Of a stretch of 64,000 nucleotides of DNA, positions 2,142-26,739 are shown piece after piece. A program made the position numbers and the translations under genes. The notes under the pieces are model-generated. The model saw only the letters and a program-made list of their open reading frames with translations, made no database searches and was not told the origin of the DNA. How positions within the stretch are numbered: position 1 is the stretch's first letter; each line of letters opens with the position of its first letter. The DNA is taken from NCBI GenBank assembly GCA_017644185.1, contig JAEPMA010000002.1, positions 310,001 to 374,000 of the forward strand. Reading direction: 5' to 3'. The DNA comes from Rhodospirillales bacterium. GTDB taxonomy: Bacteria > Pseudomonadota > Alphaproteobacteria > Rhodospirillales > Casp-alpha2.

Positions 2142-4007
2142 CTACGCTAGGCAGGCCAAGTTTTCCTCGATCGACCTTAGAATACTGCAGCAACCCCTCC
2201 CAGCAGCGTAGAGGATATGTTCTGCGTCTCGTTGAGCGCGAATACAATCCGTTGCCGCATGTTTCGCAGATGATGTCGTGATGATCATAAAATCGGCATT
2301 TTGCGAGAGCTTGGTTAGTCGTGGCGTGCAAACTTTGTCAGAAGAGACCTCTACCTTGACGTCGGGCGCAATTCTCAAAAGCGCTGCTTTTGCCTGTCGC
2401 CCCGCGCTCTCGGTCAACGTATAGATGCCAACTAATTTGCCACGCAGTAGATCCGCAGTTGTTTCTTTTTCATCACTCTCTTCATCAGGCAGGGGCTCCC
2501 AGCCGGCAGTTTTAGCGACGCTTGAATAGGCTGAGTGCTGCAATGATGAAAGTTGGTTCGCAATTGGCTTTAAGCTACCCAAAATCTGATTGAGCAGTGT
2601 ATTCCTGGCTGCCTCGATAGGCGCCGAGAATCTGCATAAGACTTCTGCAATATCTATCAACCAATATGCATCACTCGTCCCGGCGCCATCCGGGATCGAG
2701 TCTGACACACCTTGCAATAAGCTTTTGTATTGTTCACCGGAAAGACCAACTTCCAAGAGTGCTGTGAACATCTCCGAGATGCCTTCTCGAAACTCGCCAT
2801 CCCGGTTCTGTGTCTCGATGAGTCGCAGCAAGACAATCTCATATATGGGTGACATTAGTTTTCGAGGGTAACCATCATCTTGTTTGAGCCACGTAATGAT
2901 TTGGGGAAGTGCTTGCTCGAGTCGCTCTAACTCCCTCTTCGAGCTTAGTTCAAACAATGCCTCCTCAATTTCTCCAACATCCTCCGGATCATGAATTGAT
3001 GACGCATCGTCATTCAGCACTAAGTCCTCTGCTCTTTCCCTAAACCTGAACTCTTTGTCGTTGAGTGCGTTTATCCACTCAAGCCACCCCGTTTGAAGGT
3101 CGGGAGGTTGATCAGATGAAGATGTTTCCTCTTCTGCTTTCTCGTCAGCAGGGGGAACCCCTTGTTTGGCAGGGCCTTCTCCAGGCCAGAATTCTTTGAA
3201 AGCATCCGCTGCCCATCTACTCGGCATCCCTGAACTTGCGAAGATATCTTCCGCGAAATCTTTGCAGTGTTTATCGAAGGTAGATTGCCGAGACGGCTCC
3301 CCCTCAGGATGCCCACTCATAAAGGTGAACCAAAGCGCTTCGAGGAGATGGTGTGCGATGATGAGGGGTTTGGTTACCCGGCAGAGTTCGGGAAAAGTAG
3401 GATCTGAAAGAATTTTCTTCCACTCACGAAAATGCGCATAGAACTTGACCCTCGTAAAACTAATGTTAAGTGAATCCAGACGGAATTCGTCCTTCATTCG
3501 AGAGAGCCAGTGCTTTGCGCCGTCTCGATCTCCTTCGACCAGACACATATCGAAATGCGAGATCATAGCTGCCGTTGAAATTTGCGTAGGGCGCAAGTCG
3601 ACAGGCCTAGCGAGGAGCGTATCCCTCATGCGCACCAGCGCCCGGGCGGCGAAAGCGACATTCTTGGATGGAATCAAACGTGCTACAGCGTGCGGGTTCT
3701 GTGTGATGAGAAAAGCCTCAACTTCATTCTCGGCTGTTAAGTCAGCGGGTTCGCCATTGAAAGTGGTAACTGTATGCCCGGCATAAGCTGTCAATATCGG
3801 CTGAAGAGCACGCCATTCCGTCTGATCCATTGCAATGGCGTACCATCGGATTCCATCTTCGCCCCAACAGGGCAATACGCAGCCGGGAAAGCGTTCTTCA
3901 AAGAGAGTCTCTTCAAGCCCACCGGCTAAGAACGTCTCAGGCATACTTGACCAAAGAGCGACCTTCTTGAATGTGTCGAGATTAAAGTCCGCCATCGAAC
4001 GCTTCAT
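2142..4007 (-). CDS. dpdD: DpdD, restriction component of the 7-deazaguanine DNA system
   Basis: A 621-residue protein assigned to DpdD from its place at the end of the E-F-G-H-I-J-K-D series and from its size. In Salmonella Montevideo dpdD is among the genes needed for the restriction-like phenotype rather than for base synthesis. The N-terminal part is unlike any enzyme I know. The middle (about residues 285-350) is acidic and likely disordered. The last 90 residues look like a DUF2325-type Rossmann domain: a leading LVGIYTLTES strand, then SAKHAATDCIRAQR, and a closing glycine-rich GRGCCSILRSI. The start overlaps the end of dpdK by 26 bases, which indicates translational coupling. A second ATG four codons in is an alternative start. 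Confidence 0.72.
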   Translation of the reverse strand: MKRSMADFNLDTFKKVALWSSMPETFLAGGLEETLFEERFPGCVLPCWGEDGIRWYAIAMDQTEWRALQPILTAYAGHTVTTFNGEPADLTAENEVEAFLITQNPHAVARLIPSKNVAFAARALVRMRDTLLARPVDLRPTQISTAAMISHFDMCLVEGDRDGAKHWLSRMKDEFRLDSLNISFTRVKFYAHFREWKKILSDPTFPELCRVTKPLIIAHHLLEALWFTFMSGHPEGEPSRQSTFDKHCKDFAEDIFASSGMPSRWAADAFKEFWPGEGPAKQGVPPADEKAEEETSSSDQPPDLQTGWLEWINALNDKEFRFRERAEDLVLNDDASSIHDPEDVGEIEEALFELSSKRELERLEQALPQIITWLKQDDGYPRKLMSPIYEIVLLRLIETQNRDGEFREGISEMFTALLEVGLSGEQYKSLLQGVSDSIPDGAGTSDAYWLIDIAEVLCRFSAPIEAARNTLLNQILGSLKPIANQLSSLQHSAYSSVAKTAGWEPLPDEESDEKETTADLLRGKLVGIYTLTESAGRQAKAALLRIAPDVKVEVSSDKVCTPRLTKLSQNADFMIITTSSAKHAATDCIRAQRDAEHILYAAGRGCCSILRSIEENLACLA

Positions 4008-4506
4008 GCCATTGGTTTGCTAATTCGAGACGACGTGCCGCAACAATTTCAGGTGCTGTCCGAAGGATTAAATGCTCGCCGTTAACCGTTGTCCCGTGGT
4101 GCGTAAAATTCATGGAACCGGCTAAATCGAAATTTCTTCCGATGATTCCCTTTTGGTGTTCATACTCCCCCAACACCCACCACAACTGCCTTGGAAACTC
4201 TCGTTTCAACGGCGCAAGATGGTCAAGGAATCTCTCATTGTGCTCAACGTCCCTGAGCACAAGGGCTATACGCCCGGCTCTGGACAGAATGGTTTTCAAA
4301 ACATGAGAAAAGCGAACTTTTCCGGTAGGCCAATCTGGGTCAATCGCACCAAATTCACGGGCGCCATTCTCAATGACAGGAATATCGCTGATCCAACCAG
4401 ACAGAATCCAAATGGGATCGCTGGGATACAGAGCCTCCATGACAAAAAGGCTTTGCAACACATCAGCGATCGCATCGGCCTGTAAAGGACCCGTAAGATC
4501 TCTCAT
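3982..4506 (-). CDS. dpdK: DpdK, phospholipase D-like nuclease
   Basis: A 174-residue single-domain PLD-family protein. Near the C-terminus it has HxK (H117, K119), an aspartate at 127, then AGSMNFTHHG and NGE, the layout of PLD-type nucleases that dimerise to form one active site. The role would be cleavage of DNA lacking the deazaguanine mark; DpdK is one of the restriction-side proteins in the known cluster. The ATG at 4506 directly follows the dpdJ stop (two bases between) with GGGAG upstream; an earlier frame opening inside dpdJ is less likely. The end overlaps dpdD. Nuclease activity is inferred from family motifs only. Confidence 0.85.
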   Translation of the reverse strand: MRDLTGPLQADAIADVLQSLFVMEALYPSDPIWILSGWISDIPVIENGAREFGAIDPDWPTGKVRFSHVLKTILSRAGRIALVLRDVEHNERFLDHLAPLKREFPRQLWWVLGEYEHQKGIIGRNFDLAGSMNFTHHGTTVNGEHLILRTAPEIVAARRLELANQWHEAFDGGL

Positions 4507-4508
4507 GA

Positions 4509-7500
4509 TCAGACGTGCTCCCTTAACGTCACGACGATACAAGGCCCACTGTCATCCGCATCGCTATAAGAGTCTACAACTGGGTAAAAGTTGTGGTAGT
4601 GCACGGTAACTGGCTTGCTGATTATTTCCATGACGCTTTGGGAAAGGGCATCCATGTCGTGGTTGGAGGCCATTCCAACAATTCCAGATTCGACCAATTC
4701 CTCAGTCACTTCCTCCAACCAGTCATCTGACCTCACTGACACGACTTTGATTTGAGCACGGGCAATAACAGAACGAACGAGACCTGCGTCACTGATCCAA
4801 GGTTCGCGGTACGTATTGTAAGATTGAACTCCAAATTGTCGCAGTTCACCTCCTCTAGCCCAGAGAAGTCTCTCGGCCGTAGAGAGTTCATTCCCATCCC
4901 CCCCAACGACGGATAGCGCCGCCTTGATTGATGGGGCCAAGTTGGAAATCGAAGCTAGAAGCCTCACAGGCAAACAGACTTCATGCCTTTCTTCCAGGCG
5001 GTCCCAAAACTCAAGAAGCTGCTTTGTAAGCTCATCTGTTTCTTTTGAAGTACTCGCTTTTACAAACCGCGTTGAAAAACTGACCCCAAGCGCTCTCGAA
5101 TATGGGATTCCTCTGGAACCTAATGCCTTTACAAATTCAATCCTGGCATCTTCGCGTTCCCTCGAGTCCCGAGCCCGCCTCATTTTCGATAAGCTGTCTG
5201 TGACGCTTTCATCTTTCGTTATCTCAGAGAGGATTTTTGACAAACCGATTGCCGCATTTTCTGAGTCACTTGGCGCCAGGGCCGCTTCCATTGCTTTGAA
5301 AAAAGATCTCGGATCACGTGAGAATTTGTCGGCCAGTGCTTCTATCGTGCCACCACCACCCAGTGTCGACTCAACGATGACAACCGTGCAAGCGTCGTCA
5401 TTTTCAACAAGATCAACTGTCAACCCTTCTAGCGCCGTGTTCTTCGGGATGGATAGAACACATGCTTGAAGTGCCGCCTCAGCAAGTGTTTGAGCATAAA
5501 TTTCCTTGATCCAAATACCCGGCAGTGAAACCTCGCTATCGAAGGTCTCGGAGCCAATTTTGCAAATTCGCTCCAACACTCCCTCGGTCTCGAGATCCGT
5601 TAGGAGAGTTTGTTCGAGTTTGGCTTCTCTCGCTTCGGAGGGGTCATCAATGATCTCGCAACTTATGGTCTGCGCAATAGCGGGCTTTAAATCGTAGGCT
5701 TCACTTTTCGCGGCAATATGATCAAAGGCATCCTTCAGGGAAATTTCTTTCTCTTCGCTCTTAACCAGAGCAGCGTGCCACACAACCTGCATCAGCCAAT
5801 CCCGGCGGAATTGATTTATTGTGTTGGGCAGATCTCCATCGCTCGAAATACGCTGACGATACCTCAGCGTTGTCAGCCATCTCTTGACATCAGGTGGCAA
5901 CTTAAGGCCCGCCAACTCGTCTGCAGACGGCAACTGCAAGGGGATACATACCGCATCGCTTTCATACGCAAATCCAACTGCCGCTGGTTTCGATTGGTCA
6001 CTGTCCGTTAGAGAAAACTCGATTCGTCGGGTCTCTCCGTTCACCCTCAGGCTTGCTACTCCAGAGTGGGCGTAACGACATACCGTCACGGCGCTTGCCA
6101 ACCTGTGCAGATAAAAATTCAAACTAGTGACTATGTTCTTCCAAGCTGGGAGTTGTGGAAGCGAAAGAAGGTGGGCCTCACCTTTAAACTCAAAGTCACT
6201 ATTCCAATGCCACATAGCCGTTGATGTGTGACTAATACGCTGTCGGTTCGAAATTGCTGCGACGCGTGTCGCCCAAGGCCTATATGTATGAACTGATCCT
6301 TTCCCTGTTATAGCGAATGCCCCTAGGTACTCATGCCGTTCGGCATACTCATTGATGTCTATCGATTGTTTTTCTTTTTCGGGATCAAGTGGAAACCAGT
6401 GGGCGATATTGCCGGCCCTATCCGCGAAACGCCTCCGGACTTTCCCTGGCGTGAATTCTGTTAGTGCTTGGCGAATGCGCAGGCGTTCCTCACGCTCTTC
6501 TTCATACTTCGAACTGGGAGGAACAAGGATGGTTACTTCCGGCAAATTCAACTCGCCAAAAAGTTCCCGCGGCATGAAATCCGGTAATGGATGGTATGGA
6601 ACATTCAGATCGAAATCTCGCTGGTCGTTTGCCATACGCCAATCTGTGAACAGTCGGCGTGCAAGCGTTGGCAAGACTTCGAGAAACAGGGATCTGGGCT
6701 GCTCCCAAAGGATCAAGTCAAGCGCGTGATCATCAATTTTCAGACACTTCGTTAAATGCTCTCTAAAAGATCTCACCCGATTTGGTTCGAGTTGAATGAG
6801 GTCTTTGATCACCTCTTTTGCAATATCTAAGAAAGCTACTTTTGATTTTGCGTCTTTGGGTGTTGAGAGTTCTTTCCAAGACCATCCATAGACCTTGTTC
6901 CTAGCCGCAATTTCGGAGATCCAATCGAACAACGCGCATACAGCTTGCATACGCAAAATATATCCATTGCTGACGGGCAGAGGTTGCCGTTCAATCTGAG
7001 GAGAGAACAACTCCTCGTAAGCTTGAAAAGCCAGGCGATCTCGGCCGTAATCTGACAACACAGTAATCATAATGGGCCGCATTCCTCTACGGCGCCCCGC
7101 TCGACCTTTCCGCTGCACAAATGATGCGTTTGAGTGAGGCGCTTTGTGTTGGAGTACCGCGCCTACGTCGGGATCATTGAACCCCACCTCCAGAGAAGCA
7201 GTAGCCACAACAACATCCGAGGCATTGAGGACCCCCGGGTCCCTTGACGTCGTGCGACCAATACTTAGACGTTCCTTCAAATTTCCACGGAGATCTTCTG
7301 CCAACGACCAAAGCTGGCCATCCAAATCACGATCATCCGTGTCTGGCTCGTGCCGACTTCGCAGTTGGGCAAGCGGTTCTCGATTTGGATCAGGATCGTT
7401 TATCTGCCAAGGCTTATAAGCCTCCGCATCCCTGAAATCGTCGTACAAACGGTTAATAACATCCAGATTGTCGGTGAAGGCAAACACACGGCTACCAAAT

Positions 7501-8972
7501 AGTCCTTTTGATGGGCCATTGGAATTAGGGTCCAACATACGAGCCAACAACATCAAGCACTGAATTGAAGTAGAAAGCGTAGCTGCCTGAGAACTCGGGT
7601 CAGAGCGAACCAAGATTTGATAGTCTGCACCCTCCTCCTCCATGTCTACCAGTCTAGGAGTGATCTCCTGGACGTTCGCGCCATACAATCCCGTTAAGTC
7701 TTCGAAGAATTGCCCTGCTTCTTCAAGCGTTGCGGATAAGCCCACCCAGTGAATTGGCGCGGATAGCATCTTCCGCCATCGGCGGAGCAGAAGCGCTGTT
7801 TGCGCACCACTTGTCCCTGTGTAGGTGTGAACTTCATCTAAAAGGATATAGCTGGGCTTTAATTCCGCTCTGCACCCTATACCAAAAAGGGTTCTCATCT
7901 CCGCATCGGACATGCGCTGATTGAGCATTTCTGTTGTGGTAAATAGAAAATCGGGTGGCGTCGCACGGATCGAACTTCGCGTTAAACGCAACTCATCAGG
8001 TGAACTAGCAAAATGGCATGATGTGCACGAGACCTTTTCTCGTTTAGCCAAGAGATCCTCTTTCTTCCACACAGTCTCAGAGCCACATTCAGGGCATCGC
8101 AAGAAAGGGCATAAATACCCCCCATGTCGCCAAACCCAACGAGAATAGTCTTTAACTGCTGTCTCTCCGGGGAAAAGGGGGACTTGACCGTACAATGGCC
8201 CAACGCTCAGCTTGGGCTTTCCAGCAGCCTGCAAAGTGGGGTTCGCAGATCGCGCCAGTTTGTATACCTCGGTGAGTTGATCTTTTAGCAACTCATTCCG
8301 AGGATAGAGGGACAACACCTTCGTAAAAGACTGACCAGGCTGCAGGTTTGCACAAACCCTAAGCAACGCCGGCAGATAAAAAGAAAGTGTCTTTCCACTA
8401 CCTGTGCCCGCCGTAATGATCGTTCCGAAATCCTTGGACGCCCAAAAAATCCGCTTGAATGCATCCACTTGGAACTGGGAAAGGGATTTCATTCCTCCCG
8501 CTGCGAGGACCGCGCCCCAGACTTTCTCCTGCAGATCGGTGAACCCGGCTCCAGCTGCGTTGATTTCTGCCTTCCCGTTCTCTGACGAAATGTCCCTTTT
8601 GGGATATCGCCGAGGAGAAATATCAAGCCGGTAATCAGAAACAAGCGTAGGTGATGATCGCCAAGGACGATTGTCAAACAACTGACGGGACCTTGCCGTC
8701 AATCGAACCAACTCAGCAAATCTTGAACGGTAACAACGGTCATCGTCTGACAACCAAAAACGAACGAGCAGCCTTTCTTCTAGTTCGGCAACGACGTCTT
8801 CCACATCTGTATCTATGGAATGCCTATTAAAGGCTTTTGAAATTTGTGCAATGAGTTGGTCTTCGGTGATGAACGAGTCAACGAACCCCCATGCTAAACT
8901 TGGAAACTCCAACTCTTCCAGTGCGCCAAGGGCGATTTCAATCGATCGCTGATCGATATCGGCTGCGCTCAT
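4509..8972 (-). CDS. dpdJ: DpdJ, large DEAH-box helicase
   Basis: A 1487-residue superfamily 2 helicase, the largest protein here. Walker A is TAGTGSGKT (about 188-196), the DEVH box is at 379-382, motif III is LSAT (412-415), and the second RecA domain ends in a clear motif VI, QRKGRAGRRRGMRP. A zinc ribbon (C293, C296, C316, C319) is inserted between Walker A and the DEVH box. The C-terminal half has a glycine-rich LGGGGTIEALAD block like DUF1998-type domains found at the end of defence helicases. It likely translocates on DNA in the restriction complex with DpdK. It starts four bases after dpdI and ends two bases before dpdK, so it is part of one polycistronic unit. Confidence 0.9.
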   Translation of the reverse strand: MSAADIDQRSIEIALGALEELEFPSLAWGFVDSFITEDQLIAQISKAFNRHSIDTDVEDVVAELEERLLVRFWLSDDDRCYRSRFAELVRLTARSRQLFDNRPWRSSPTLVSDYRLDISPRRYPKRDISSENGKAEINAAGAGFTDLQEKVWGAVLAAGGMKSLSQFQVDAFKRIFWASKDFGTIITAGTGSGKTLSFYLPALLRVCANLQPGQSFTKVLSLYPRNELLKDQLTEVYKLARSANPTLQAAGKPKLSVGPLYGQVPLFPGETAVKDYSRWVWRHGGYLCPFLRCPECGSETVWKKEDLLAKREKVSCTSCHFASSPDELRLTRSSIRATPPDFLFTTTEMLNQRMSDAEMRTLFGIGCRAELKPSYILLDEVHTYTGTSGAQTALLLRRWRKMLSAPIHWVGLSATLEEAGQFFEDLTGLYGANVQEITPRLVDMEEEGADYQILVRSDPSSQAATLSTSIQCLMLLARMLDPNSNGPSKGLFGSRVFAFTDNLDVINRLYDDFRDAEAYKPWQINDPDPNREPLAQLRSRHEPDTDDRDLDGQLWSLAEDLRGNLKERLSIGRTTSRDPGVLNASDVVVATASLEVGFNDPDVGAVLQHKAPHSNASFVQRKGRAGRRRGMRPIMITVLSDYGRDRLAFQAYEELFSPQIERQPLPVSNGYILRMQAVCALFDWISEIAARNKVYGWSWKELSTPKDAKSKVAFLDIAKEVIKDLIQLEPNRVRSFREHLTKCLKIDDHALDLILWEQPRSLFLEVLPTLARRLFTDWRMANDQRDFDLNVPYHPLPDFMPRELFGELNLPEVTILVPPSSKYEEEREERLRIRQALTEFTPGKVRRRFADRAGNIAHWFPLDPEKEKQSIDINEYAERHEYLGAFAITGKGSVHTYRPWATRVAAISNRQRISHTSTAMWHWNSDFEFKGEAHLLSLPQLPAWKNIVTSLNFYLHRLASAVTVCRYAHSGVASLRVNGETRRIEFSLTDSDQSKPAAVGFAYESDAVCIPLQLPSADELAGLKLPPDVKRWLTTLRYRQRISSDGDLPNTINQFRRDWLMQVVWHAALVKSEEKEISLKDAFDHIAAKSEAYDLKPAIAQTISCEIIDDPSEAREAKLEQTLLTDLETEGVLERICKIGSETFDSEVSLPGIWIKEIYAQTLAEAALQACVLSIPKNTALEGLTVDLVENDDACTVVIVESTLGGGGTIEALADKFSRDPRSFFKAMEAALAPSDSENAAIGLSKILSEITKDESVTDSLSKMRRARDSREREDARIEFVKALGSRGIPYSRALGVSFSTRFVKASTSKETDELTKQLLEFWDRLEERHEVCLPVRLLASISNLAPSIKAALSVVGGDGNELSTAERLLWARGGELRQFGVQSYNTYREPWISDAGLVRSVIARAQIKVVSVRSDDWLEEVTEELVESGIVGMASNHDMDALSQSVMEIISKPVTVHYHNFYPVVDSYSDADDSGPCIVVTLREHV

Positions 8973-8976: not shown

Positions 8977-9690
8977 TCATCCAAATCGAATACAAAGCCG
9001 GTCCAACATTTCATGCTCGCCCAACCACTCTCGTACTTCGTCCGTCAAATCATCGAGTTGAGCCCCGTGGCCTGATGCCGCTCTAAGGAAGGCCCGAACT
9101 GCCTCAGGAATTCCATCCAAAGTGTCAAAGATGCTTCGGGCTTTCTTAGACAGATCGCGAACGCGTTTTATCGCTGTCTCATCCTGCGGGAGGTCCGAAC
9201 GCAAGTCCTTAATCTCTTGCAAGCACTCGGTGACATCTTTTTTTGCTCGCCCAATATCACCACTGTCGGGCAACGAGTTCAGCCAACTTCCGGAAATCTG
9301 CGGTGCCGTCTCGTCAACAAAAGCTCGCCAATCATCATTCAGTTTTTGAGTGACATTCTTTGCGGCATGGTCGCGCGAGGGCTCAATTAAATTCGTGACA
9401 AGTGTTTTCTCTCCGAGTGTTTTCTCCCAATTCTCCGCAAAGCTCTCTCTCACCTGCTCACATTTCTTGATCAGTTTTTTTGATGCTGCCGGGCGCTCTT
9501 GTAAGTCCACCCCTGCTTTCACCAAAATCGTCCGTGTTGTATTTGCCTCATCAATTACCTCGCGCACTTTATGGATCTGGGTTGCACGACTATTCAAAGC
9601 TAGCAAGCGCTCTTGGCTCGCACCCAAATTATCAAGTTGATCCATCAGATTTTTGACGTCGCCTGCGAGTTCAATGAGGTTCTGCAACAT
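8977..9690 (-). CDS. dpdI: DpdI, coiled-coil component
   Basis: A 237-residue, highly charged, mostly helical protein with long heptad-like stretches (for example in residues 1-60 and 130-190) and no catalytic motif. It is assigned to DpdI by position between the ATPase DpdH and the helicase DpdJ. In the known cluster DpdI belongs to the restriction side; its biochemical role is not established. A structural bridge between the ATPase and the helicase would fit the sequence, but this is inference. The ATG at 9690 lies inside the last 20 bases of dpdH and has a strong GGGAGG site, so translation is coupled to dpdH. Confidence 0.75.
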   Translation of the reverse strand: MLQNLIELAGDVKNLMDQLDNLGASQERLLALNSRATQIHKVREVIDEANTTRTILVKAGVDLQERPAASKKLIKKCEQVRESFAENWEKTLGEKTLVTNLIEPSRDHAAKNVTQKLNDDWRAFVDETAPQISGSWLNSLPDSGDIGRAKKDVTECLQEIKDLRSDLPQDETAIKRVRDLSKKARSIFDTLDGIPEAVRAFLRAASGHGAQLDDLTDEVREWLGEHEMLDRLCIRFG

Positions 9691-19000: not shown

Positions 19001-19188
19001 ATGAACACCCGAGTCTCGGGAGGCAATTCGACGCGTGAAAGATCAGCTAAATCAACCTGCTCGGTTGCGCGTTCCGCAACCGAGTGGAAGTACTCAATCG
19101 TTGCGGTCGTTTCTTCAACATCCAGAAGTTTGGCAAAGACACGATCATCGCCGTGCACAAGCACAAATCCATCGTGAATGAAGTTCAC
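16024..19188 (-). CDS. dpdE: DpdE, SNF2-like DNA translocase
   Basis: A 1054-residue SNF2/RapA-type ATPase. The N-terminal 110 residues are beta-rich, resembling Tudor-like domains. The core has Walker A LLADEVGLGKTIEAG (181-195), DEAH at 260-263, motif III LLLLSATPALG, and a C-terminal lobe with the motif VI block RLEQRIGRLDRFGR. Such enzymes translocate on duplex DNA without unwinding it, which suits a sensor that scans for missing deazaguanine. The start is GTG at 19188 with a strong AGGGGGG site. It heads the restriction operon, behind its own predicted promoter, about 217 bases after queC. Loss of dpdE abolishes the restriction-like phenotype in Salmonella. Confidence 0.9.
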   Translation of the reverse strand: MNFIHDGFVLVHGDDRVFAKLLDVEETTATIEYFHSVAERATEQVDLADLSRVELPPETRVFIEISPGHWRVGRVRSHLSEFGSANRYEVRFPNQDNQDLSEIDLYVRCLDVYADPSETLAAGCSETQAVADRRRKALKTIRMLRSACEGLTGPYSSAIELMPHQMSSVRKVLQDTLVRYLLADEVGLGKTIEAGCIIRQMLLDRPDLETLVLVPDSLLSQWREELEKRFYISPRDQNVRILGYGASLEIQQAPDLLVVDEAHRVIATNPDEEDQLGNHIQSLAHKSESLLLLSATPALGDEARLFGLLHLLDPSAYPIGDLDGFRRKVQSRQEIGRLLMTIQPGGTAFVVRAQAKSAMEMFPDDTYVTSIANDLLGAGEDVEKRDRSTVLLRDHIARTYRIHDRLIRSRRADAEGWAMRPRSEPWPNLSHVRIVPNQTSWSTDLSNALEEWRVVAASFATESDAQLFRRWRDLVSISFLGRESIARYVDSLEPIFEGEKEYLDALKTVATSDFEREVRIKTLCAEVKAWRAGQGNSLSQKTPKIACFVSDEDEAATIYTEFRQCFGPYDVLNLSETSDPLERERKISSFRDDAQCWILVGSRHDEEGLNLQFMSAIFHLDLPADVGRLEQRIGRLDRFGRTLPKLEHRIYLPDDDEEAPWYAWINVLFNGFRIFNGSVSDIQFQLETLDRLIWSRFLSEGSGCAEELAEQVAAAIDEEREKLNEQHALDQIANLSDDAVSFIDRMEEAEEDETQLNKAVLNWMNGVLHIDQDPQNPERNQTHRVFIYKPLLPIIPWERVLSSSVDRPLTWRRNLSQTSKEIPILLRPGCDLLDALERISNWDDRGTAYATWRVDPQASDIWVGFRWVWVVGPDLSDGTAVWRTKKRPDLHRRAEAYLPIVTLDFWTDTSGDTVADNELVERLNQPYVKRPNHVGVYDINLGSRPDALSEIMDPTVLRDTIRDLRLRAEEHVWQHDDVADALERAKEKLYRDDSLIRHSLERRQAYLQREFEQIYEGVEDAIADLDSLKRAIENPRLRLDECGLLVVSPEPPDA

Positions 19189-19405: not shown

Positions 19406-20098
19406 TCAGGATTTGAAAGACTGGAACCCTTTTTGTCGAAGGTCACACGCTGGGCACTCACCGCATCCATAGCCCCAGTCATGGCGAATTGTCCGATCAC
19501 CCGTGTAACAGGTATGAGTATGTTCGGTCATAAGCTCAATCAGCGTTTGCCCGCCCAGTTCGTTGGCCATTGACCAAGTCGCCGCTTTGTCGATCCACAT
19601 GAGCGGCGTCTCAATGACGAAGCGGGTCTCCATACCAAGATTTATCGTCGCTTGCAGGGCTTTTAAGGTATCGTCTCGACAATCCGGATAGCCAGAAAAG
19701 TCAGTCTCGCACATCCCGCCCACGATGTGCTTACACTCTCGCCGATATGCGAGAGCCGATGCGTAGGTGAAAAATATCAGATTCCGGCCCGGCACAAACG
19801 TGTTCGGCAAACCGTTCTCTTGCATTCGAATTTCTACACCGGGCGTCAATCCGGTTTCGCCGAGGTCGGCGAGACCAGAAATGTCCACCATTGTGTCTCT
19901 TCCTAATTTTTCTGACCAGTTCGGGAAATTTGAGCGCAACGCCGAAACAAACTCCTGCCGGATCTCGAGTTCAACGCCATGCCGTTGTTTGTAATCAAAC
20001 CCGACGGTTTCAACATAATCATAGCGATCAAGCGCCCAAGCGAGGCAAGTTGCAGAGTCCTGTCCACCAGAAAAAAGAACGAGTGCGCGTTGTTCCAT
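19406..20098 (-). CDS. queC: QueC, 7-cyano-7-deazaguanine (preQ0) synthase
   Basis: A 230-residue enzyme that turns 7-carboxy-7-deazaguanine into preQ0 using ATP and ammonia. The PP-loop SGGQDS is at residues 10-15, the substrate-binding [14 protein letters not shown] block is in the middle, and the structural zinc site is C197, C212, C215 and C218 (CGECPAC). Length is usual for QueC. It is the last gene of the modification operon, 11 bases after dpdB2, with the ATG at 20098 preceded by GTAGGGG. A copy inside the island means that preQ0 for DNA need not depend on the host's queuosine pathway. Confidence 0.95.
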
Positions 20099-20109: not shown

Positions 20110-21183
20110 CTACTCACCTGCTCTCAATTCAACGACCTTATCGACGTTTGATCTTTTCAAAACGCGGGTCAAAAACGCGGCCAGCGTCTGAATATCACGA
20201 CTGATATTTTGGATGCCATTCCACGGGCGCGTTTCCGTCTCATCAAAATGCCACTCGCCTCTAGTCCAGTGTGTATGCTCGACGAGAGGTATCAAGCCAC
20301 GCTCAAACTCAACCTGCGATGTGGCGCCATGGCGGGCATATAAATACTCCATGACGTAACCCATCGAGATGATGCCTGCGCCATGAACCAAGCGAGAGGA
20401 TTTCGGTTTATGCCCCTCCCAATCCTCGGCAAAGACGGTCTGAATAGCAGCAAAGAAATCGCTGATCAGTTTGAAGCATTGCTCTTCTCCGTCTTCCTCC
20501 CTGATGAGTTCTCGGCAAACGCCATCGGAGAGAGAGTTCAAGATGAAGCGTTGAATGCAGGTGTCCGTGATCAAGCCAGTCGGATTTGTATGCTGCTTGA
20601 TCTGCCCTCTGAGTGAGGAGCCTTCCTCATAATTTAGGGCATCTGTGAGCTTTGCGGCACGCGCTCGCGATGACATTTTATCGGGCAACCCATCAACGGT
20701 CGGCAGTAATTCATAGATCAGCGACTTTGGAAGTGGGCGCGTGTTGTTAATTAGGATAAATTGCCGCCTTAACTCTTCCTCATCGCGACAAATCAGCACT
20801 GAGACAAAAACCTCAAAATCGCTGTCAGGCAATCCACTGAGAGCGGTTAAGCGCTGCTGACCATCAACGACGAGACCTGGGGGGCCATCCGACAAATCGA
20901 TTTGCAGAACACAGTTTGAGCCTTTTCCTTTCACGGATACGCGATCCGTAAAAGCAACAACGATGGGGTTTGGCAAAACCGCGTCGTCAGATTTCAGGTA
21001 GTCGCGGATTTCGTTGATGTGCTGAGAAATCTGCGGTCGTTGAAAGCCTCGAATGCCGCCGCTCTCGTCACGGGCTATCTGCTCGATCGAGGCAAACTTT
21101 TGTATATCCGACGCCTTTGCTGGGAAGCACAGAACCTTGTGCCGTTCGCTTTGCTGCGCTCTAACTGCTTTGAACTCGAGCAT
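20110..21183 (-). CDS. Second DpdB-type DGQQR-domain protein
   Basis: A 357-residue paralogue of the DpdB encoded on the other side of dpdA. The family signature VDGQQR is at 106-111, and the two proteins share ordered blocks: GFQR followed by HxxxIxxYL, RxQFILxNxxxPLP, TDTxIxxxI, and a C-terminal W-N-x-I-Q segment. DpdB and DndB-like DGQQR/DGQHR proteins accompany DNA base or backbone modification enzymes; DpdB is needed with DpdA for preQ0 insertion in Salmonella but is dispensable in some clusters. The ATG at 21183 has GGA at good spacing and lies inside the 3' end of dpdA, so translation is coupled. An ATG seven codons upstream is less likely. Confidence 0.85.
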
Positions 21184-22489
21184 CGTCAGATCCTTTCTCT
21201 TCATTCCCTGTCAAACGCTGCAATTGCTTTTGAAACACCCACATGTTGTGGATGCCGCGACGCTTGTTTCGATTGCTGGCTCGGAAGATTGCTCCCTCGA
21301 CACCAATTTGAGCACAGATATTACAATCACACTCTTCCCAAGGACGGTCAGCTAAAGTTTTGCGGTAACTTTCCTCCAGAGAAGCCAACTTCTGGTCCGA
21401 GGGAGGCTCATTATTTTTCGGGTTGGTTAGCGTTGTTCGCGAATAAGCCATCACCGCAGCTATCGCCGTATCCAACTTTACTTTTCTGCTCGCATAGCCT
21501 CGAACAGCATCAAGGGCTTCTCGCTCTTGTGCGATGACCGCGCTCTGATTTGCAAACCCCTTTGAATAGAGAAGCTTGAGCCCCTTGCTTTCCGTTGCTT
21601 GGGGGATTCGAACGGCCGTGTAGTAACGCATTCGTTGGTCATTGGTCGGCATAAAAAAGTTATAACGATTGTCTTTGAAGGCTCGAAGTAGGGGTGACGT
21701 CGTATCAATACTGGTCACGTAGTAGTCAGCGTAATCAGCGATATCGTCGATTTTCCCAAAGCCCAAAATATGAAGGCGAATGTGGTCCTGCACTTTCTCA
21801 CGAACGGCAGCGACAACCTCTAGGATTGTGGGGTGAGCAAGCGGCACCATGCCGCCGAGGGCAATATAATCATAACCCATTTTAACAAGGTCCCCTGCCG
21901 CTTTCGCCATGCTGCCGGGGGACCAACCTTGAACGACACCAATTGGCGTAAAAGGCCCGGAGACATGCTTACACTCCCTCAGAAAAGCAGAAGCATTCTC
22001 CTGGGTTATCTCATAACGATTTAACGCATCTCTGGCCGTCGCAATGTCGCTCGGCGCCTCCATCCCTTTAAGGGTGTTGTCGTGCGTAAAGATGATGTGA
22101 TCGAGAGAGCATCCGTGGCTAAACCCACCATCTTCATAAAACTCGACAATCTCTGAAATCGAGTAAGGGGGTTTGTCTGATTTCGCATAATTGAATGCGC
22201 CGCAGTCGCCAAAGATTTGGAAGTCTTTGTACTGGCTACCCGTCAGCCTAAGGAATTTGCGCGCCCCATCTCGAAGGAAGCGGAAAGTTTCTGCCTCTCC
22301 GTATTTGCCGCTAGACACACGATCCGAAAAGACCGCTTTAGAAAAAAGTACACCGTCGTACGGCGCTCTCGAAAGCACCTCGTGTGGATAAAGGTCGCTT
22401 CGCGTATCCCGACCTGAAGGCGAAGAATCGCGAAGAAAGTCGTAGTTCGGATCGACCGTATCTTTGCTATCAGCGTAGATAAATTTCAT
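21161..22489 (-). CDS. dpdA: DpdA, DNA guanine transglycosylase (TGT fold)
   Basis: A 442-residue relative of tRNA-guanine transglycosylase that would exchange guanine in DNA for preQ0. Visible TGT hallmarks are the aspartate in FGDCGAF (D95), the substrate loop IALGGMVPL (209-217), a second catalytic-type aspartate in SIDTTSP (D262), and the zinc site C387, C389, C392, H414 (CxCxxC then H). The region around residues 270-380 differs from tRNA enzymes, as expected for DpdA. The ATG at 22489 overlaps the dpdB stop as ATGA. Its neighbours (two DpdB proteins, DpdC, QueC) are the modification half of the cluster. This is the diagnostic gene of the system. Confidence 0.93.
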   Translation of the reverse strand: MKFIYADSKDTVDPNYDFLRDSSPSGRDTRSDLYPHEVLSRAPYDGVLFSKAVFSDRVSSGKYGEAETFRFLRDGARKFLRLTGSQYKDFQIFGDCGAFNYAKSDKPPYSISEIVEFYEDGGFSHGCSLDHIIFTHDNTLKGMEAPSDIATARDALNRYEITQENASAFLRECKHVSGPFTPIGVVQGWSPGSMAKAAGDLVKMGYDYIALGGMVPLAHPTILEVVAAVREKVQDHIRLHILGFGKIDDIADYADYYVTSIDTTSPLLRAFKDNRYNFFMPTNDQRMRYYTAVRIPQATESKGLKLLYSKGFANQSAVIAQEREALDAVRGYASRKVKLDTAIAAVMAYSRTTLTNPKNNEPPSDQKLASLEESYRKTLADRPWEECDCNICAQIGVEGAIFRASNRNKRRGIHNMWVFQKQLQRLTGNEEKGSDDARVQSS

Positions 22490-23619
22490 GCGTTTTGCCT
22501 GGAGAGTTCCCGGTCGAGACGGCAGAGATAATCCGCAAGCCGATTGATATGGCCATCAATACTCTGGATTTCATTCCATTCCATGCCAATCCCATCCCAG
22601 ACACCGCTTGTCCAACAGCAGTACGGCGCAATGCGCAATAACGAGTTGCGGATTTCATCCTCAGGGGCAGCCAACCCCTCAGCGCGAAGCATAATCTGAT
22701 CCATAAGAATTCCAACAGAACGGATCCCGGCTGAGTGCATCAGTCTGCTCTTTTGCGGCGTCAGCCCCCAAGCATCATCAAAGACCTCTCGGACAACACC
22801 CCAAAACAAGACGATCGTCTTATACATCGCGTCCGTATCTGCAGGCTGATTTGCAAAGCCTCGATATTGATTCAAAGCACCAATCGGTGGGCGCAAACTC
22901 CTTGCGATCATTTTTTCAATCGCCGTATCCGTGATGACCGACTTCTTGCCGTCAGAGAATCGCGAGATGATTCCCTTAAAGGGAGAGTTCGGGTCCCGTG
23001 CGAGGATATTGCAGAGTTCGCTCGGCAGCTTTCGAACCGAGAGATCTCTCGGCAACATCGTTCCGACCTCCGGGAGCAATTCATTGATCAGTCGAGTGGG
23101 AAGCGGTTTCGCTTTGTTCACAAGAATGAATTGCTCGCGTTGGATCTCGAGATCTGGCGAGACAAAAGCGATAACTGGAACCGGCAAGTTTTTGTTCTTC
23201 GTCTCAGAAAGCGCAAGGGACCGCTGCTGACCATCGACGATCCAAGCAAGCCGCTTTCCCTCCTCCAGTATTGGAATATGCAAGGTACCGGCAACGGATG
23301 CATCCATTACGCCCTGAGGATCGCGGCCTCTCGCTTGTTTGAATTCAACATCTGATCCAAGAGATAGAATAATGGCGTTTGGGAATAACACGTCCCCTTG
23401 ATTGAGGTATTCAATGATGCTCTGAACGTGAGTGCGGATCCCCTTTCTTTGGAACCCTTTGAGTTCACCGTGATCATCTCGCTCTACGCGCGTGATGTCG
23501 GCAATCTCTAGAACAGCAGACCCTGGCAAAAACATGGCGTAGATATTGATGCCTTTGCGCTGCTGGGTCTTGAGCGCCCGAACTACAATCTCTTTTTGCT
23601 TAGCGTTTGGTTTTTTCAT
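22486..23619 (-). CDS. dpdB: DpdB, DGQQR-domain partner of DpdA
   Basis: A 377-residue protein with WIVDGQQR at 126-133, preceded by a GFQRKGIRTHVQSIIEYL segment and followed by REQFILVNKAKPLP. These are the signatures of the ParB/DndB-like DGQQR family. With DpdA it forms dPreQ0 in DNA in Salmonella; how it helps is unclear, perhaps by DNA targeting or an ATPase step. The ATG at 23619 overlaps the dpdC stop (ATGA), which decides the start over one 20 codons upstream. It overlaps dpdA in the same way. Which of the two paralogues is the true functional DpdB cannot be decided from sequence alone; this one has the canonical position before dpdA. Confidence 0.88.
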   Translation of the reverse strand: MKKPNAKQKEIVVRALKTQQRKGINIYAMFLPGSAVLEIADITRVERDDHGELKGFQRKGIRTHVQSIIEYLNQGDVLFPNAIILSLGSDVEFKQARGRDPQGVMDASVAGTLHIPILEEGKRLAWIVDGQQRSLALSETKNKNLPVPVIAFVSPDLEIQREQFILVNKAKPLPTRLINELLPEVGTMLPRDLSVRKLPSELCNILARDPNSPFKGIISRFSDGKKSVITDTAIEKMIARSLRPPIGALNQYRGFANQPADTDAMYKTIVLFWGVVREVFDDAWGLTPQKSRLMHSAGIRSVGILMDQIMLRAEGLAAPEDEIRNSLLRIAPYCCWTSGVWDGIGMEWNEIQSIDGHINRLADYLCRLDRELSRQNA

Positions 23620-24554
23620 GCCAACCCGTGTGCTTCTTTGGCTCGTTTGAATAACGTCGCAAAGCGACCCTGTTCGCATGCGATTTGCTCCTCATCACGA
23701 AGGATCCGGAGCATTTTTGATGACTTTCCCTCGGCACGATCCCAAAGATCGGGCACCAACTGAATCAAATCATCATCACTAATTGCCTTGCGGGAGATCT
23801 GTTCGGGGGACCGTTTCCCTTTGAGACTCGTACGCACCATTTGCGCATGCGCTCTTTGATCGAGCCTTTGCTTATCCTTCTCTGAAATCAGTTGGCAGAA
23901 ATGGTGTAGCGCCCGCTGCGCAAAATCCCCTCGCGTCCCTGGGTTCGGCGTGTCGGGGCCATCCAACCGATCGTCATAGGGCATCACAACTGAGGCGAGC
24001 TTTTCTGGAACATCCACAGACGGACGAATGCCAACAAGCCTTAGACGATTAATTTGAGGCATTGAGAGAGAGCACAGATCGTCCCGAACGAGATCAAGGT
24101 AACTCGACGAGAGGCCTATAATAGCGAGTTTGTTTTTCTCAGCCTTCAGAAGACTCGCCAGTGGGTGCTCATCCCCCTTCGCGGCACCCAAATGGCTCCA
24201 CCAATCGGCATCAACAATCGGATCTATGATCTTAATTTGGATCCGATCTTTAGAGCTTTTGGCCGTTGTTAAGTCATAGGCCGGAATTTCATCGTCGGGC
24301 CCGACCAAACCAAGCCCCGCGGAAATCACATAGAGAGGCGCCCCGATAACTTCACTCGCCAGTGACGCCTCAACAAAGGTACGGCCACAATAAACTTGCG
24401 CCGCGAATGATCGCTCGTTAGCGCCTGACAGACGACGAACCCACTCCTTGGCAACATCTTCGACCGAACCTTTTTTAAGGTTCCGCGCTTGCAAGACACG
24501 CGGCGCAGCCTTTTGTTTTCTATTCGTGCAGGTTGTGATGATCACAGCGGACAT
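23616..24554 (-). CDS. dpdC: DpdC-like protein (preQ0-to-amide step), YaaA/DUF6884-like
   Basis: A 312-residue protein. The N-terminal region has IITTCTNRKQ, a YCGRTFVEAS segment, then LYVISAGLGLVGPDDEIPAYDL, the layout of YaaA/DUF6884-type domains. DpdC, the protein that converts dPreQ0 to the amide dADG, is of this type as I recall, and it sits at the head of the modification operon next to dpdB-dpdA as here. The C-terminal 100 residues are helical and basic. The ATG at 24554 is chosen because homology-like sequence begins there; a frame extension of 16 codons upstream lacks a good ribosome site. The naming rests on context plus domain type, so chemistry should be treated as likely rather than shown. 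Confidence 0.75.
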   Translation of the reverse strand: MSAVIITTCTNRKQKAAPRVLQARNLKKGSVEDVAKEWVRRLSGANERSFAAQVYCGRTFVEASLASEVIGAPLYVISAGLGLVGPDDEIPAYDLTTAKSSKDRIQIKIIDPIVDADWWSHLGAAKGDEHPLASLLKAEKNKLAIIGLSSSYLDLVRDDLCSLSMPQINRLRLVGIRPSVDVPEKLASVVMPYDDRLDGPDTPNPGTRGDFAQRALHHFCQLISEKDKQRLDQRAHAQMVRTSLKGKRSPEQISRKAISDDDLIQLVPDLWDRAEGKSSKMLRILRDEEQIACEQGRFATLFKRAKEAHGLA

Positions 24555-24679
24555 AAAGCACCCGACCCGGTTCAAATCCCGATTTAATGATCCCTCAACC
24601 ACATTAATTTAGCAAATCCTAAGCCTCATTTTTTACATTTAATTGTGCATAACAGCGCCAATTAGACTGCATTTAATGT

Positions 24680-24707
24680 TTGCACGAATTTCTGGTGGGG
24701 GTATATC
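24680..24707 (+). promoter_or_regulatory. Possible promoter of queE-queD
   Basis: TTGCAC (24680-24685), 16 bases, then TATATC (24702-24707), ending 18 bases before the queE ATG, which is preceded by a strong GAGG. It lies in the 171-base divergent gap between dpdC and queE. The minus-strand promoter for dpdC must be in the same gap, but I could not choose one box pair. The spacing is acceptable but the match is only moderate. Confidence 0.35.
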
Positions 24708-24725
24708 GTGTAGGAATTGAGGTAA

Positions 24726-25385
24726 ATGACCCCTGAATATGGGATTTTGATGACATACTCGGTTAAGGAAGCCTTCCTAACCCTCCAAGGCGAGGGGACG
24801 CACTCAGGGAAACGGGCCGTATTTTGCCGTTTTTCAGGGTGTAATTTATGGGACGGCCTCGAGAAAAATCGAGCGTCAGCAGTTTGCCAATTTTGTGACA
24901 CGGATTTTGTCGGCACCGACGGGGAAAACGGCGGCAAATATCACACAGCAGACAGCCTTGCTCAGAAAATTAATGAGCTATGGGGAGACGGAGGCGAAGA
25001 CCACAAATTTGTCGTCCTGACCGGTGGCGAACCTCTCTTGCAGGTCGATGAACGGCTCATCGATTCGCTTCATGCATTTGGCTTTAAAGTCGCAATTGAG
25101 ACCAATGGGACATTGCCGACCCCAGAAAAAATTGACTGGGTATGCGTCAGCCCAAAAGCCAATGCGGAATTGAAATGCCTTTCGGGTGACGAACTTAAGC
25201 TCGTGTTTCCTCAGATCGACGCCATGCCGGAGCAATTCGAGCATCTGTCGTTTACGCACCACTATCTGCAACCCATGGACAATGCAGACCTGAAGACCAA
25301 CACCCAAGAGGCCATCCAATACTGCCTGCAAAACCCGAAATGGCGCATCAGCCTACAAAGCCACAAGCTAATGGGAATTCAGTGA
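24726..25385 (+). CDS. queE: QueE, 7-carboxy-7-deazaguanine synthase (radical SAM)
   Basis: A 219-residue radical SAM enzyme that contracts carboxytetrahydropterin to 7-carboxy-7-deazaguanine. The cluster cysteines are C39, C54 and C57, a Cx14CxxC spacing rather than the classic CxxxCxxC; such a long loop is known in QueE proteins of the Burkholderia type. The substrate and SAM motifs LQGEG (20-24) and VVLTGGEPLL are intact. The ATG at 24726 has GAGG seven bases before it; an internal ATG eight codons in is less well placed. It is followed two bases later by queD, and both run divergently from the dpd genes. Confidence 0.95.
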   Translation: MTPEYGILMTYSVKEAFLTLQGEGTHSGKRAVFCRFSGCNLWDGLEKNRASAVCQFCDTDFVGTDGENGGKYHTADSLAQKINELWGDGGEDHKFVVLTGGEPLLQVDERLIDSLHAFGFKVAIETNGTLPTPEKIDWVCVSPKANAELKCLSGDELKLVFPQIDAMPEQFEHLSFTHHYLQPMDNADLKTNTQEAIQYCLQNPKWRISLQSHKLMGIQ

Positions 25386-25387
25386 CG

Positions 25388-25753
25388 ATGATTGAGATAT
25401 ACAAAGAGTTCACATTTGAGGCCGCTCATCAACTTGCGGCGAATGTCGACCCGGGTCATCCGTACTCTTATGTCCATGGGCACTCTTTCTCAGTCCAAGT
25501 CTTTTTCCGCGGGGAACCGGATCCAGAAACCCAGTGGGTGCATGATTTTGCAGAGATCGAAGAAAAGATTAACCCCGTTCGAGAAATCCTGGATCACAGG
25601 TATCTTAATGAGATCGAGGGCCTCTCACGTCCAACGCTTGAAAACATCACGAGATGGATTTGGGAACAACTCGAACCGAGCCTTCCGATCATCGATCGCG
25701 TTATTGTGAAGCGCGGGACCTGCGGCGAGGGGTGCGTATACCGTAAGGTCTGA
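25388..25753 (+). CDS. queD: QueD-family 6-carboxytetrahydropterin synthase, catalytic Cys replaced
   Basis: A 121-residue QueD/PTPS-fold protein. Zinc ligands H14 (FEAAH), H30 and H32 (HGHSF) are present, as are the LDHRYLN histidine and the C-terminal CGEGCVYRK. In classical QueD a cysteine sits four residues before HGH (CxxxHGH); here the residue is Y26. Similar substitutions may be usual in alphaproteobacterial QueD proteins, so activity is not excluded. It would make 6-carboxytetrahydropterin from dihydroneopterin triphosphate for QueE. The ATG two bases after the queE stop is preferred over one 16 codons upstream inside queE. No folE or queF gene is in the window. Confidence 0.9.
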   Translation: MIEIYKEFTFEAAHQLAANVDPGHPYSYVHGHSFSVQVFFRGEPDPETQWVHDFAEIEEKINPVREILDHRYLNEIEGLSRPTLENITRWIWEQLEPSLPIIDRVIVKRGTCGEGCVYRKV

Positions 25754-25781
25754 TTGAGTGCTTTTCTGCAACCATCCTTAG

Positions 25782-26084
25782 TCATTCAGAATAAAAGTCG
25801 AATAATTTTCTCAAATGCTGCTCGTAGAGATGCACCCGTTCGAGATTTCTAGGATCTAACGGTTTTTGGAGAAATACTGATGGCAACTCGCTCTTCTTAG
25901 TGACGACCAGCAAGGTCAAATCCGGTCGGCCCGCATCTTTTTCGTCTTTCAAAAGTTGGTCAAGCTTCGGCCACGGGCCTCGAGCGGTCCTTCCAACTTT
26001 AACGCCCAGATCACCATACGTTAGTTTCGATCCACGTTTCGCTGCGTCGATAAGTACAGTGCGTATGATTGCGTTGGCGTCCAT
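25782..26084 (-). CDS. Hypothetical 100-aa protein beside queD
   Basis: I do not recognise this small protein. It begins with a helix and KLTYGDLGVKVGR, then a hydrophobic TLLVVTKKSELPS strand, a shape seen in small winged-helix domains attached to HNH or restriction-like proteins. The ATG at 26084 follows GAGAGG at good spacing; a GTG two codons upstream is possible. It converges on queD, with 28 bases between stops. It sits between queD and the preQ0-type transporter gene but on the opposite strand to queD, so a link to deazaguanine metabolism is only positional. Confidence 0.6.
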   Translation of the reverse strand: MDANAIIRTVLIDAAKRGSKLTYGDLGVKVGRTARGPWPKLDQLLKDEKDAGRPDLTLLVVTKKSELPSVFLQKPLDPRNLERVHLYEQHLRKLFDFYSE

Positions 26085-26184
26085 GATCACCTCTCACTCA
26101 GAGAGTTTTGAGCGTCACACCCAAGACCTAGCTATTTTTACCGCATTGTGCAGTGGGCGCTTAGTTCAAAAAGCCCATCGAGTC

Positions 26185-26739
26185 TCACGCTGGCTGTATC
26201 CCGAGCTTTTCTTCTCTATTGCGTATCCACCAAATAAACGGAATGGCGAGAACCACCATCCAACCCTTACCAACAATTTGACCGGCTAGATATTCCAAGC
26301 TTCCGAAAGCCAAGTACAAGAAGACCATACTGTCGATTACAAGTCCGATAACGCTACTCGCGATCACCGCAGTAATAAGTCGCCGTTCTTGCAATGGCGT
26401 ATAGACGGCGAAATCAGCCAACTCTGACAAAAGAAAAGCGGTGGCAGATGCGACAACCAAAGCTGATGGAGCAACAAAAGCTGATACAAGTGCGCCAATG
26501 ATAATAGCAGCCAGTGCCCAAACCTTACCGAGCCGCCTTTGAACCAGATCGCGCAGCACCAACGCCAAGCCAATCATCAAGACTCCACTAGGGGCAGATA
26601 GCCCAGGCGCAACGGGAACTAAACAAGGCCCGTCTGGCACGCAATAAGTACCCACGTTACCAACCATCCAGTTTGCAACAGGAATGCTGGCTATAAACCC
26701 AGCCAAATAGAGATATCCATGCAATTTTTGCTGCGCCAT
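26185..26739 (-). CDS. YhhQ-family queuosine precursor transporter
   Basis: A 184-residue membrane protein of the YhhQ/VUT family (COG1738), whose E. coli member imports preQ0 and preQ1. Five to six hydrophobic segments are visible. The family region SAPSGVLMIGLALVLRDLVQRRLG, here in residues 49-72, is intact and followed by the conserved LLSELADFAVYTPL block. It is a little shorter than E. coli YhhQ (about 220), mainly at the N-terminus. The ATG at 26739 is preceded by GGAAAA. Its position a few hundred bases from queE-queD suggests that it supplies preQ0 to the DNA modification enzymes; this is inference from context. Confidence 0.85.
   Translation of the reverse strand: MAQQKLHGYLYLAGFIASIPVANWMVGNVGTYCVPDGPCLVPVAPGLSAPSGVLMIGLALVLRDLVQRRLGKVWALAAIIIGALVSAFVAPSALVVASATAFLLSELADFAVYTPLQERRLITAVIASSVIGLVIDSMVFLYLAFGSLEYLAGQIVGKGWMVVLAIPFIWWIRNREEKLGIQPA

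Follow-up and report, generated by a model that had tools for sequence, protein, structure and literature searches.

Genomic islands for 7-deazaguanine modification of DNA have been described in Salmonella Montevideo and Kineococcus radiotolerans among other bacteria; in the relevant parts of a 2025 preprint (PMC11888242) dpdA-C are assigned to synthesis and dpdD-K to restriction, horizontal transfer is reported, and islands with two dpdB genes and islands with que genes are counted. The 64,000-nucleotide stretch analysed here (the window), from a Rhodospirillales bacterium, carries an island with both traits. Two DpdBs around dpdA and que genes are thus already known from other islands, and the present one is not the first of its kind. 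It adds a further mobile island with a full dpd gene set, one for which the ends, the target site and an empty site are known.

The genes dpdC-dpdB-dpdA-dpdB-queC and dpdE-F-G-H-I-J-K-D lie on the minus strand, with a gap of 217 bp separating queC from dpdE. The gene for the DUF6884-like protein DpdC, by family the enzyme of the preQ0-to-amide step (23616-24602), gave 323 bits with the PADLOC DpdC model and no NCBIfam match. It is followed by dpdB1 (22486-23679; NF041060, 436 bits, cut-off 300), the DNA-guanine transglycosylase gene dpdA (21161-22489; NF041059, 505 bits, cut-off 200), dpdB2 (20110-21204; NF041060, 386 bits, cut-off 300) and queC (19406-20098; TIGR00364, 202 bits, cut-off 150). 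The restriction genes, all present from dpdD to dpdK, begin with the SNF2-like helicase gene dpdE (16024-19188; NF041062, 845 bits, cut-off 500), the RecQ-like helicase gene dpdF (13542-16031; NF041063, 710/550), dpdG (12694-13545; NF041064, 134/80) and the ATPase-like dpdH (9671-12682; 1003 aa; NF041065, 593/450). Between dpdH and dpdJ sits a divergent dpdI (8977-9690), which scored 62 bits with NF041066, below the cut-off of 150, and had no PADLOC match. The run ends with the DEAD/DEAH helicase-like dpdJ (4509-8972; 1487 aa; NF041067, 1532/800; GSGKT and DEVH motifs), the phospholipase-D-like dpdK (3982-4542; NF041068, 169/100; HQK and GSMN motifs) and dpdD (2142-4007; 621 aa; NF041061, 397/300).

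Divergent from these runs, on the plus strand, are the radical SAM gene queE (24726-25385; TIGR04508, 344/240; C-x14-C-x2-C) and a non-canonical queD (25340-25753; Pfam PTPS, 104/22). All sixteen island genes are open, ORFs of 1487 and 1054 aa among them. Every gene named in the first-pass annotation proved to be an intact ORF where it had been placed and to match the expected family, DpdI and QueD falling below NCBIfam cut-offs; among DpdA to DpdK, all proteins except DpdC and DpdI passed the NCBIfam cut-off. The interval given for the island also contains a VUT/YhhQ-family gene that had been left unnamed (26185-26739, minus strand; 184 aa; PF02592, 44 bits, cut-off 27; the queuosine-precursor transporter model TIGR00697, 33 bits, cut-off 51). 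When the PDB was searched with the DpdA sequence, 7ui4 (E 5.6e-86) was the only match at E 0.001 or better, and structure searches with DpdC and a DpdB profile returned no useful solved structure. The reading of the locus as a dpd modification-restriction system is backed by the family HMMs, by a layout common to related loci and by the match of DpdA to 7ui4.

An element of 44.6 kb, inserted into a tRNA-Met gene, contains the dpd cluster. A 52-bp repeat occurs twice in the genome: the right, attR-like copy (41017-41068, plus strand) is the 3′ part of the tRNA-Met gene (41018-41094, minus strand), and the left copy, outside the window at 306377-306428 of contig C22, precedes an integrase-like gene. 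The integrase-like ORF, of 552 aa, lies 145 bp from the left repeat and gave 20.5 bits with Arm-DNA-bind_3, below the cut-off of 27. The integration site is empty in one genome of the same genus (G076), DpdA was found in one of 48 genomes of the family, and the G+C content is 45-52% in the first 31 kb as against about 60% in the flanks. With att repeats and an empty site found, the element qualifies as a genomic island integrated in tRNA-Met, probably acquired horizontally.

For comparison we used the best 80 of 291 related loci, close kin by choice, each locus ending at 10 kb or at a contig end. DpdB flanks DpdA on both sides in at least 74 of these 80, and QueC, QueD and QueE are found in at least 69, 63 and 58 of them, respectively. 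In a FastTree tree of 179 DpdBs one set (support 96) contains all 81 upstream copies, DpdB1 among them, and a single further row, and a second set (support 98) unites 84 of the 86 downstream copies, DpdB2 included, with one other. The DGQQR motif is kept in 81 of 81 upstream and 85 of 86 downstream copies. Two DpdBs as a peculiarity of this genome was a possibility we rejected, as the double DpdB recurs in related loci. Judged from these sequences the two DpdBs appear to be old, separately conserved paralogues, and they would probably act as a pair around DpdA.

The island QueC keeps the SGGxDS, YxQxHxxE, VPxRN and YPDC motifs and the Cys4 zinc motif, and qualifies as a canonical QueC. Its zinc loop, C-x14-CGECPAC, is longer than the x8 loop in the motif list taken from PMC13329287. 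The x14 loop was considered as a speciality of dpd islands and rejected: five of 20 QueC genes from outside the given dpd loci (L188, L189, L198, L199 and L200) have it.

The same genome carries on contig C30 its own queC, queE-queD, tgt and a QueF-like ORF, the last giving 56 bits with the long-form QueF model TIGR03138, below the cut-off of 293 bits. Two preQ0 gene sets and one likely preQ0 consumer are therefore present in one cell. The absence of queF from the island, noted in the first-pass annotation, held in a whole-genome search with TIGR03138, which matched only another contig and nothing in the window. A search of 30 genomes gave QueF in 29, so the lack of queF in an island does not separate that island's preQ0 from tRNA queuosine. 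The first-pass proposal that preQ0 is made independently of host queuosine synthesis is therefore supported only in part. In its favour are queC, queD and queE in the island and the Ser-type QueDs described below, the sole PTPS match in ten of 17 other genomes; against it are the host que set with the QueF-like ORF, the residues Tyr42 and Arg125 of the island QueD and a possible importer of the VUT family.

The island QueD has HPYSYVHGH with Tyr42 at the Cys column of CxxxHGH, the motif given for QueD/PTPS-I in the pertinent section of PMC5041015, and thus lacks the signature. Arg125 stands where all 44 Cys-bearing single-domain QueDs compared have Glu. The zinc ligands His30, His46 and His48 and the pair Asp85-His86 are kept. 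With TIGR03367 the protein scored 85.3, under the equivalog cut-off of 89.25, and the host copy 112.8. Its fold matched the QueD structures 3qn0 and 2oba (Foldseek probability 1.00, TM 0.87-0.88 by target), a tunnel fold. The called queD and queE share 46 bp, whereas with Met17 as its start queD would directly adjoin queE.

Loss of the signature Cys is not confined to the window: 37 of 68 dpd-island QueDs have Ser there plus Arg at the Glu column, and these and the window QueD fail the published QueD signature. Among the papers listed for dpd systems and the QueD active site, none treated a Cys-less dpd QueD. Of 85 single-domain rows, 44 combine Cys with Glu and the other 41 carry Arg and no Cys, the zinc His and Asp-His residues being invariant; the set is a 115-row tree minus 15 domains of triple-domain proteins (L028, L076, L088, L096 and L097) and minus 15 distant or tandem PTPS rows from 12 loci. 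Among the rows left out, the island QueDs L070, L080 and L090 have Cys; in the tandem paralogues L159-L162 Ala takes the place of Cys while Glu is kept, and in the triple QueDs the third domain has Glu but no Cys. By these left-out sequences, loss of Cys and loss of Glu are not always coupled.

Further PTPS genes were looked for in genomes of unstated completeness, those of 30 of 86 DpdA loci (17 Ser-type, eight Cys-type, four triple-domain and one other), then of nine more. The island QueD was the only PTPS match in ten of the 17 Ser-type genomes, and there was a single match in two of the eight Cys-type genomes as well. Ser-type QueDs may therefore work. The median dN/dS of Ser-type QueDs was 0.079 over 50 pairs, which, as a sequence measure, indicates that they are under purifying selection. 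The idea that a Cys-less QueD is simply a dead gene was rejected for the Ser type on these two grounds, a rejection that reaches the Ser type and not the Tyr type of the window: selection on the window QueD is not measurable because it sits on a long branch with no close relative. In seven of the ten single-PTPS Ser-type genomes another QueC is encoded elsewhere than in the island, a hint that something unseen replaces QueD there.

Taken together, we consider it rather likely that the locus is an acquired tRNA-Met island with a complete Dpd set whose que genes raise the preQ0 supply. Judged by family membership, DpdA with DpdB1 and DpdB2 would replace guanine in DNA by preQ0, DpdC would hydrolyse the preQ0 in DNA to the amide, and DNA without the mark would be restricted by the DpdD-K set. 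QueE, QueC and the non-canonical QueD of the island would add to the preQ0 made by the host queC/D/E genes, and the host QueD could cover a failure of the island enzyme. QueD appears to be the least certain step, with zinc site and Asp-His kept and signature Cys and Glu gone: either the rebuilt active site works, or the QueD step is made elsewhere. We lean slightly towards the former, in which the island QueD would still make CPH4 or an equivalent.

The latter, with all dpd functions present but QueD no CPH4 synthase (dead or a helper) and preQ0 coming from the C30 queD/E/C genes or VUT-mediated import, is a serious alternative that we nevertheless find rather doubtful. It would account for the missing Cys and Glu, and a full host que set is at hand. 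In L023, a Kordiimonas MAG whose island has the closest DpdA, queD bears a stop and queE has no match; QueC is kept without intact QueD or QueE in six of the best 80 of 291 loci, and two such genomes have no PTPS match. Against it, the window queD is an unbroken ORF that overlaps or adjoins queE, its product retains the zinc and Asp-His residues, and the Ser-type relatives are under purifying selection and in ten of 17 genomes the sole PTPS match. It seems improbable that the product of the island QueD is another pterin, outside preQ0 synthesis. The PTPS of Aminobacter and Paroceanicella, beside EAL-domain and molybdopterin-oxidoreductase genes, may make one, and in a motif-free alignment the Aminobacter protein is the nearest to the window QueD by identity (64% across 91 columns) and resembles it in its P-(F/Y)-S-x-x-HGH and R-G signature; however, queD adjoins queE, queC is in the same island, and the QueD tree (90 rows thinned to 55, bootstrap not settled) gives no starred set joining the two. 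A silent relic, intact but unexpressed or no longer restricting, would fit the sporadic presence of DpdA in the family and the decay of the L023 island, but is very unlikely given sixteen open genes, those of 1487 and 1054 aa included, with helicase and PLD motifs present.

A bolder proposal is that DNA-modification islands use a QueD subfamily, its members all to one side of a single branch of the trees, with Cys replaced by Ser, Tyr or Asn and Glu by Arg, which might still feed QueE, as a CPH4 synthase whose active site has been rebuilt or whose substrate is another. This we put forward tentatively, holding it slightly less likely than not. If Cys-less QueDs work, the annotation rules will have to be revised, as will the mechanism for the first committed step of 7-deazaguanine synthesis; if they are inactive, CPH4 or CDG must be reached by a different route hidden in these hosts.

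From its family the VUT protein might import preQ0 or one of its precursors, and may serve the island in that role. VUT is present in at least 29 of the best 80 of 291 related loci. By QueD type, 22 of 23 Cys-type and four of 37 Ser-type islands have it; the association with Cys-type QueD is no evidence of coupling because a single change on the tree accounts for it.

The islands treated in the corresponding parts of PMC11888242 share with ours dpdA-C for synthesis, the dpdD-K restriction genes and horizontal spread. The present island has two dpdB paralogues around dpdA, its own queC/D/E and VUT, traits counted there in other islands, and is integrated in tRNA-Met, whereas leuX is the site named there. 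Compared with QueD/PTPS-I of E. coli (3qn0) and P. aeruginosa (2oba), the window QueD is alike in fold, zinc His and Asp-His, but the signature Cys and Glu are replaced. The alphaproteobacterial plasmid islands of Sinorhizobium americanum (L016) and Methylobacterium (L022), with the order dpdC-dpdB-dpdA-dpdB-queE-queD-queC-VUT, have the synthesis genes, both dpdB copies and an x14-loop QueC in common with the window; their queE-queD-queC genes are co-directional with dpdA, whereas queE-queD is divergent in the window, and their QueD has Cys and Glu where the window QueD has Tyr and Arg. Deazaguanine phages such as 9g are not known to carry a restriction set. According to the sections of PMC6884629 on these phages, they carry, as the island does, their own preQ0 genes together with DpdA, and there the product of Gat-QueC is suggested to be channelled to DpdA.

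Profile searches matched 14 of the 16 genes in 2142-26739 to Dpd, QueC or QueE families, and 12 of these 14 matches passed the curated NCBIfam cut-off; DpdI stayed below it (62 bits vs 150), and DpdC was matched from PADLOC only, with no hit over the NCBIfam cut-off. The remaining two genes encode a VUT-family protein and a queD-like product (25340-25753, plus strand) scoring slightly below the QueD cut-off and far above that of PTPS, the Pfam family of QueD. The gene calls of the first-pass annotation, which had read a complete dpd cluster with queC, queD and queE, were thereby borne out. Gene overlaps and gaps suggest a minus-strand unit in which dpdC, dpdB1 (22486-23679), dpdA, dpdB2 (20110-21204) and queC are followed, after a 217-bp gap, by dpdE-F-G-H-I-J-K-D, with queE-queD divergent.

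The cluster lies in a 44.6-kb insertion in a tRNA-Met gene. A 52-bp repeat at 41017-41068 is the 3′ part of the tRNA gene, and its second copy (position 306377 of the contig) stands 145 bp ahead of an integrase-like ORF of 552 aa with a weak Arm-DNA-binding match (20.5 bits vs a cut-off of 27). Searched with up to three mismatches in this genome and seven others of the genus, the repeat has two copies in the former and a single copy in each of two of the latter. In the same-genus genome G076 the left flank, the tRNA and the right flank are contiguous, without the intervening 44.6 kb; in G073, of the same genus, the right flank adjoins the tRNA repeat site but the left flank is different. DpdA was found in one of 48 genomes of the family, the window's own. 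The first 31 kb of the window have a G+C content of 45-52%; beyond this it is mixed as far as 36 kb, and the flanks stand at about 60%. The repeats, the empty site in G076, the occurrence of DpdA and the G+C contrast therefore identify the element as a horizontally acquired genomic island. It also carries a tRNA-Ile gene with the anticodon TAT (28763-28837, minus strand), which may serve the codon use of the element itself, since the share of ATA among Ile codons is 13.8% for 17 genes of the element vs 4.3% for 13 flanking genes. On the minus strand of the element at 31674-34193, a PD-(D/E)XK-like protein (31674-32585) adjoins a HIRAN-domain protein (32610-34193); the pair are possible further defence genes.

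Island QueE has the radical-SAM cysteines, and island QueC the canonical motifs listed in an excerpt of PMC13329287. The claim that the island has its own preQ0 genes held; independence from host queuosine synthesis is still hypothetical, as another contig of the genome carries host queC, queE-queD and tgt, together with a QueF-like ORF (E 6.9e-15, below the cut-off of the long-form QueF model).

In QueD the signature cysteine is catalytic and a glutamate anchors the pterin. Island QueD departs from the signature CxxxHGH (excerpt of PMC5041015), reading HPYSYVHGH vs HKCRRLHGH in the host copy; PDB alignments have GHKC in E. coli 3qn0 and GHKA in 3qna and 4ntk. Among 85 single-domain QueD rows, 44 have Cys and Glu, and 41 lack the Cys (Ser 37, Tyr 3 including the window, Asn 1) and have Arg in the Glu column, in a register that is not entirely certain, the Cys-less group being one residue longer there and Asp following Arg in most Ser-type rows. 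The three zinc His and the Asp-His pair are invariant over the 85; rows outside them include Cys-less domains with Glu kept. With the motif columns excluded, the Cys-less rows were still gathered to one side of a single branch (bootstrap 99, SH-aLRT 92), and again (99/96) after five rows had been added and the set thinned to 55, the root being unfixed in both trees. In a 115-row tree including more distant PTPS proteins the 41 Cys-less rows formed one set (SH-aLRT 98). The model of window QueD (mean pLDDT 88) matches the QueD of E. coli and that of P. aeruginosa. Literature searches on QueD/PTPS, with the main primary papers outside their cover, found no description of this variant kind of supply enzyme.

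Other arrangements were also seen. Triple-domain QueDs in beta/gammaproteobacterial dpd islands (loci L028, L076, L088, L096, L097) have CxxxHGH and Glu but no Asp-His pair in the middle domain, and Asp-His in the third, as if the active site were divided among domains. Four genomes of the window's own family (L159-L162) have tandem PTPS pairs, one copy with Cys and without the first zinc His, the other with Ala for Cys and Glu kept.

Ser-type QueD is under purifying selection (median dN/dS 0.079 over 50 pairs; Cys type, 0.046 over 48). It was the sole PTPS match in 10 of 17 genomes tested (Cys type, 2 of 8). Cys-less QueD accompanies queE in three genomes of the window's order, one also with queC, and both genes on Tistrella and Microvirga plasmids, where the sequence read around the respective loci (16 and 12 kb) gave no dpd match. 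Selection, sole-PTPS genomes and the company of queE and queC would thus favour a functional Cys-less QueD. Other observations point away from it or to alternatives. A route other than QueD, not yet recognised, may exist in seven of the ten sole-PTPS Ser-type genomes, because these encode a further QueC away from the island yet no second PTPS protein. QueC is kept without intact QueD or QueE in six loci (L040, L049, L067, L078, L100, L023), five of which carry VUT; L067 has a short queE remnant, and no PTPS match was obtained in the genomes that carry L049 and L078. L023, whose DpdA is the closest to the window's among the matches listed, has a queD remnant with a stop (7446-7793, minus strand), divergent from dpdC and with Tyr at the Cys column. 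It is also possible that window QueD makes another product, because the protein closest to it, from Aminobacter, is a PTPS whose gene neighbours encode EAL-domain and molybdopterin-oxidoreductase proteins. PTPS proteins lacking the Cys, in which a loop is shortened and Arg is present, are encoded on Aminobacter and Paroceanicella plasmids (L207, L209), next to EAL-domain and molybdopterin-dependent oxidoreductase genes.

Related loci were compared, to a distance of at most 10 kb per side, for the best 80 of 291 DpdA relatives in named genomes. DpdA is flanked by DpdB on both sides in 74 of these 80; QueC is present in 69, QueD in 63 and QueE in 58; 57 have the three together, and 29 have VUT. 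In a tree of 179 DpdB sequences all 81 upstream copies fell in one supported set and 84 of 86 downstream copies in a second, each with one other row; DGQQR is kept in 81/81 upstream and 85/86 downstream copies. The two DpdBs are thus an old duplication with both copies retained, and we infer that DpdB1, DpdA and DpdB2 form a complex. A Variovorax plasmid (L018:12013-13580) has DpdB and a DUF6884 protein without a DpdA match, adjoining type I-E CRISPR-Cas genes. Two DpdBs and a QueD of the Ser type also occur in the dpd synthesis cluster of MT835580.1 (L204), a record labelled Bacteriophage sp. (unverified) that is possibly a bacterial contig.

The layout has precedents: the preprint PMC11888242, in excerpt, counts 801 additional dpdB copies among 2,335 unique islands, about 27% of which have preQ0 genes and about 9% YhhQ. 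The window cluster is a further member of this known dpd kind, in a mobile island with clear bounds.
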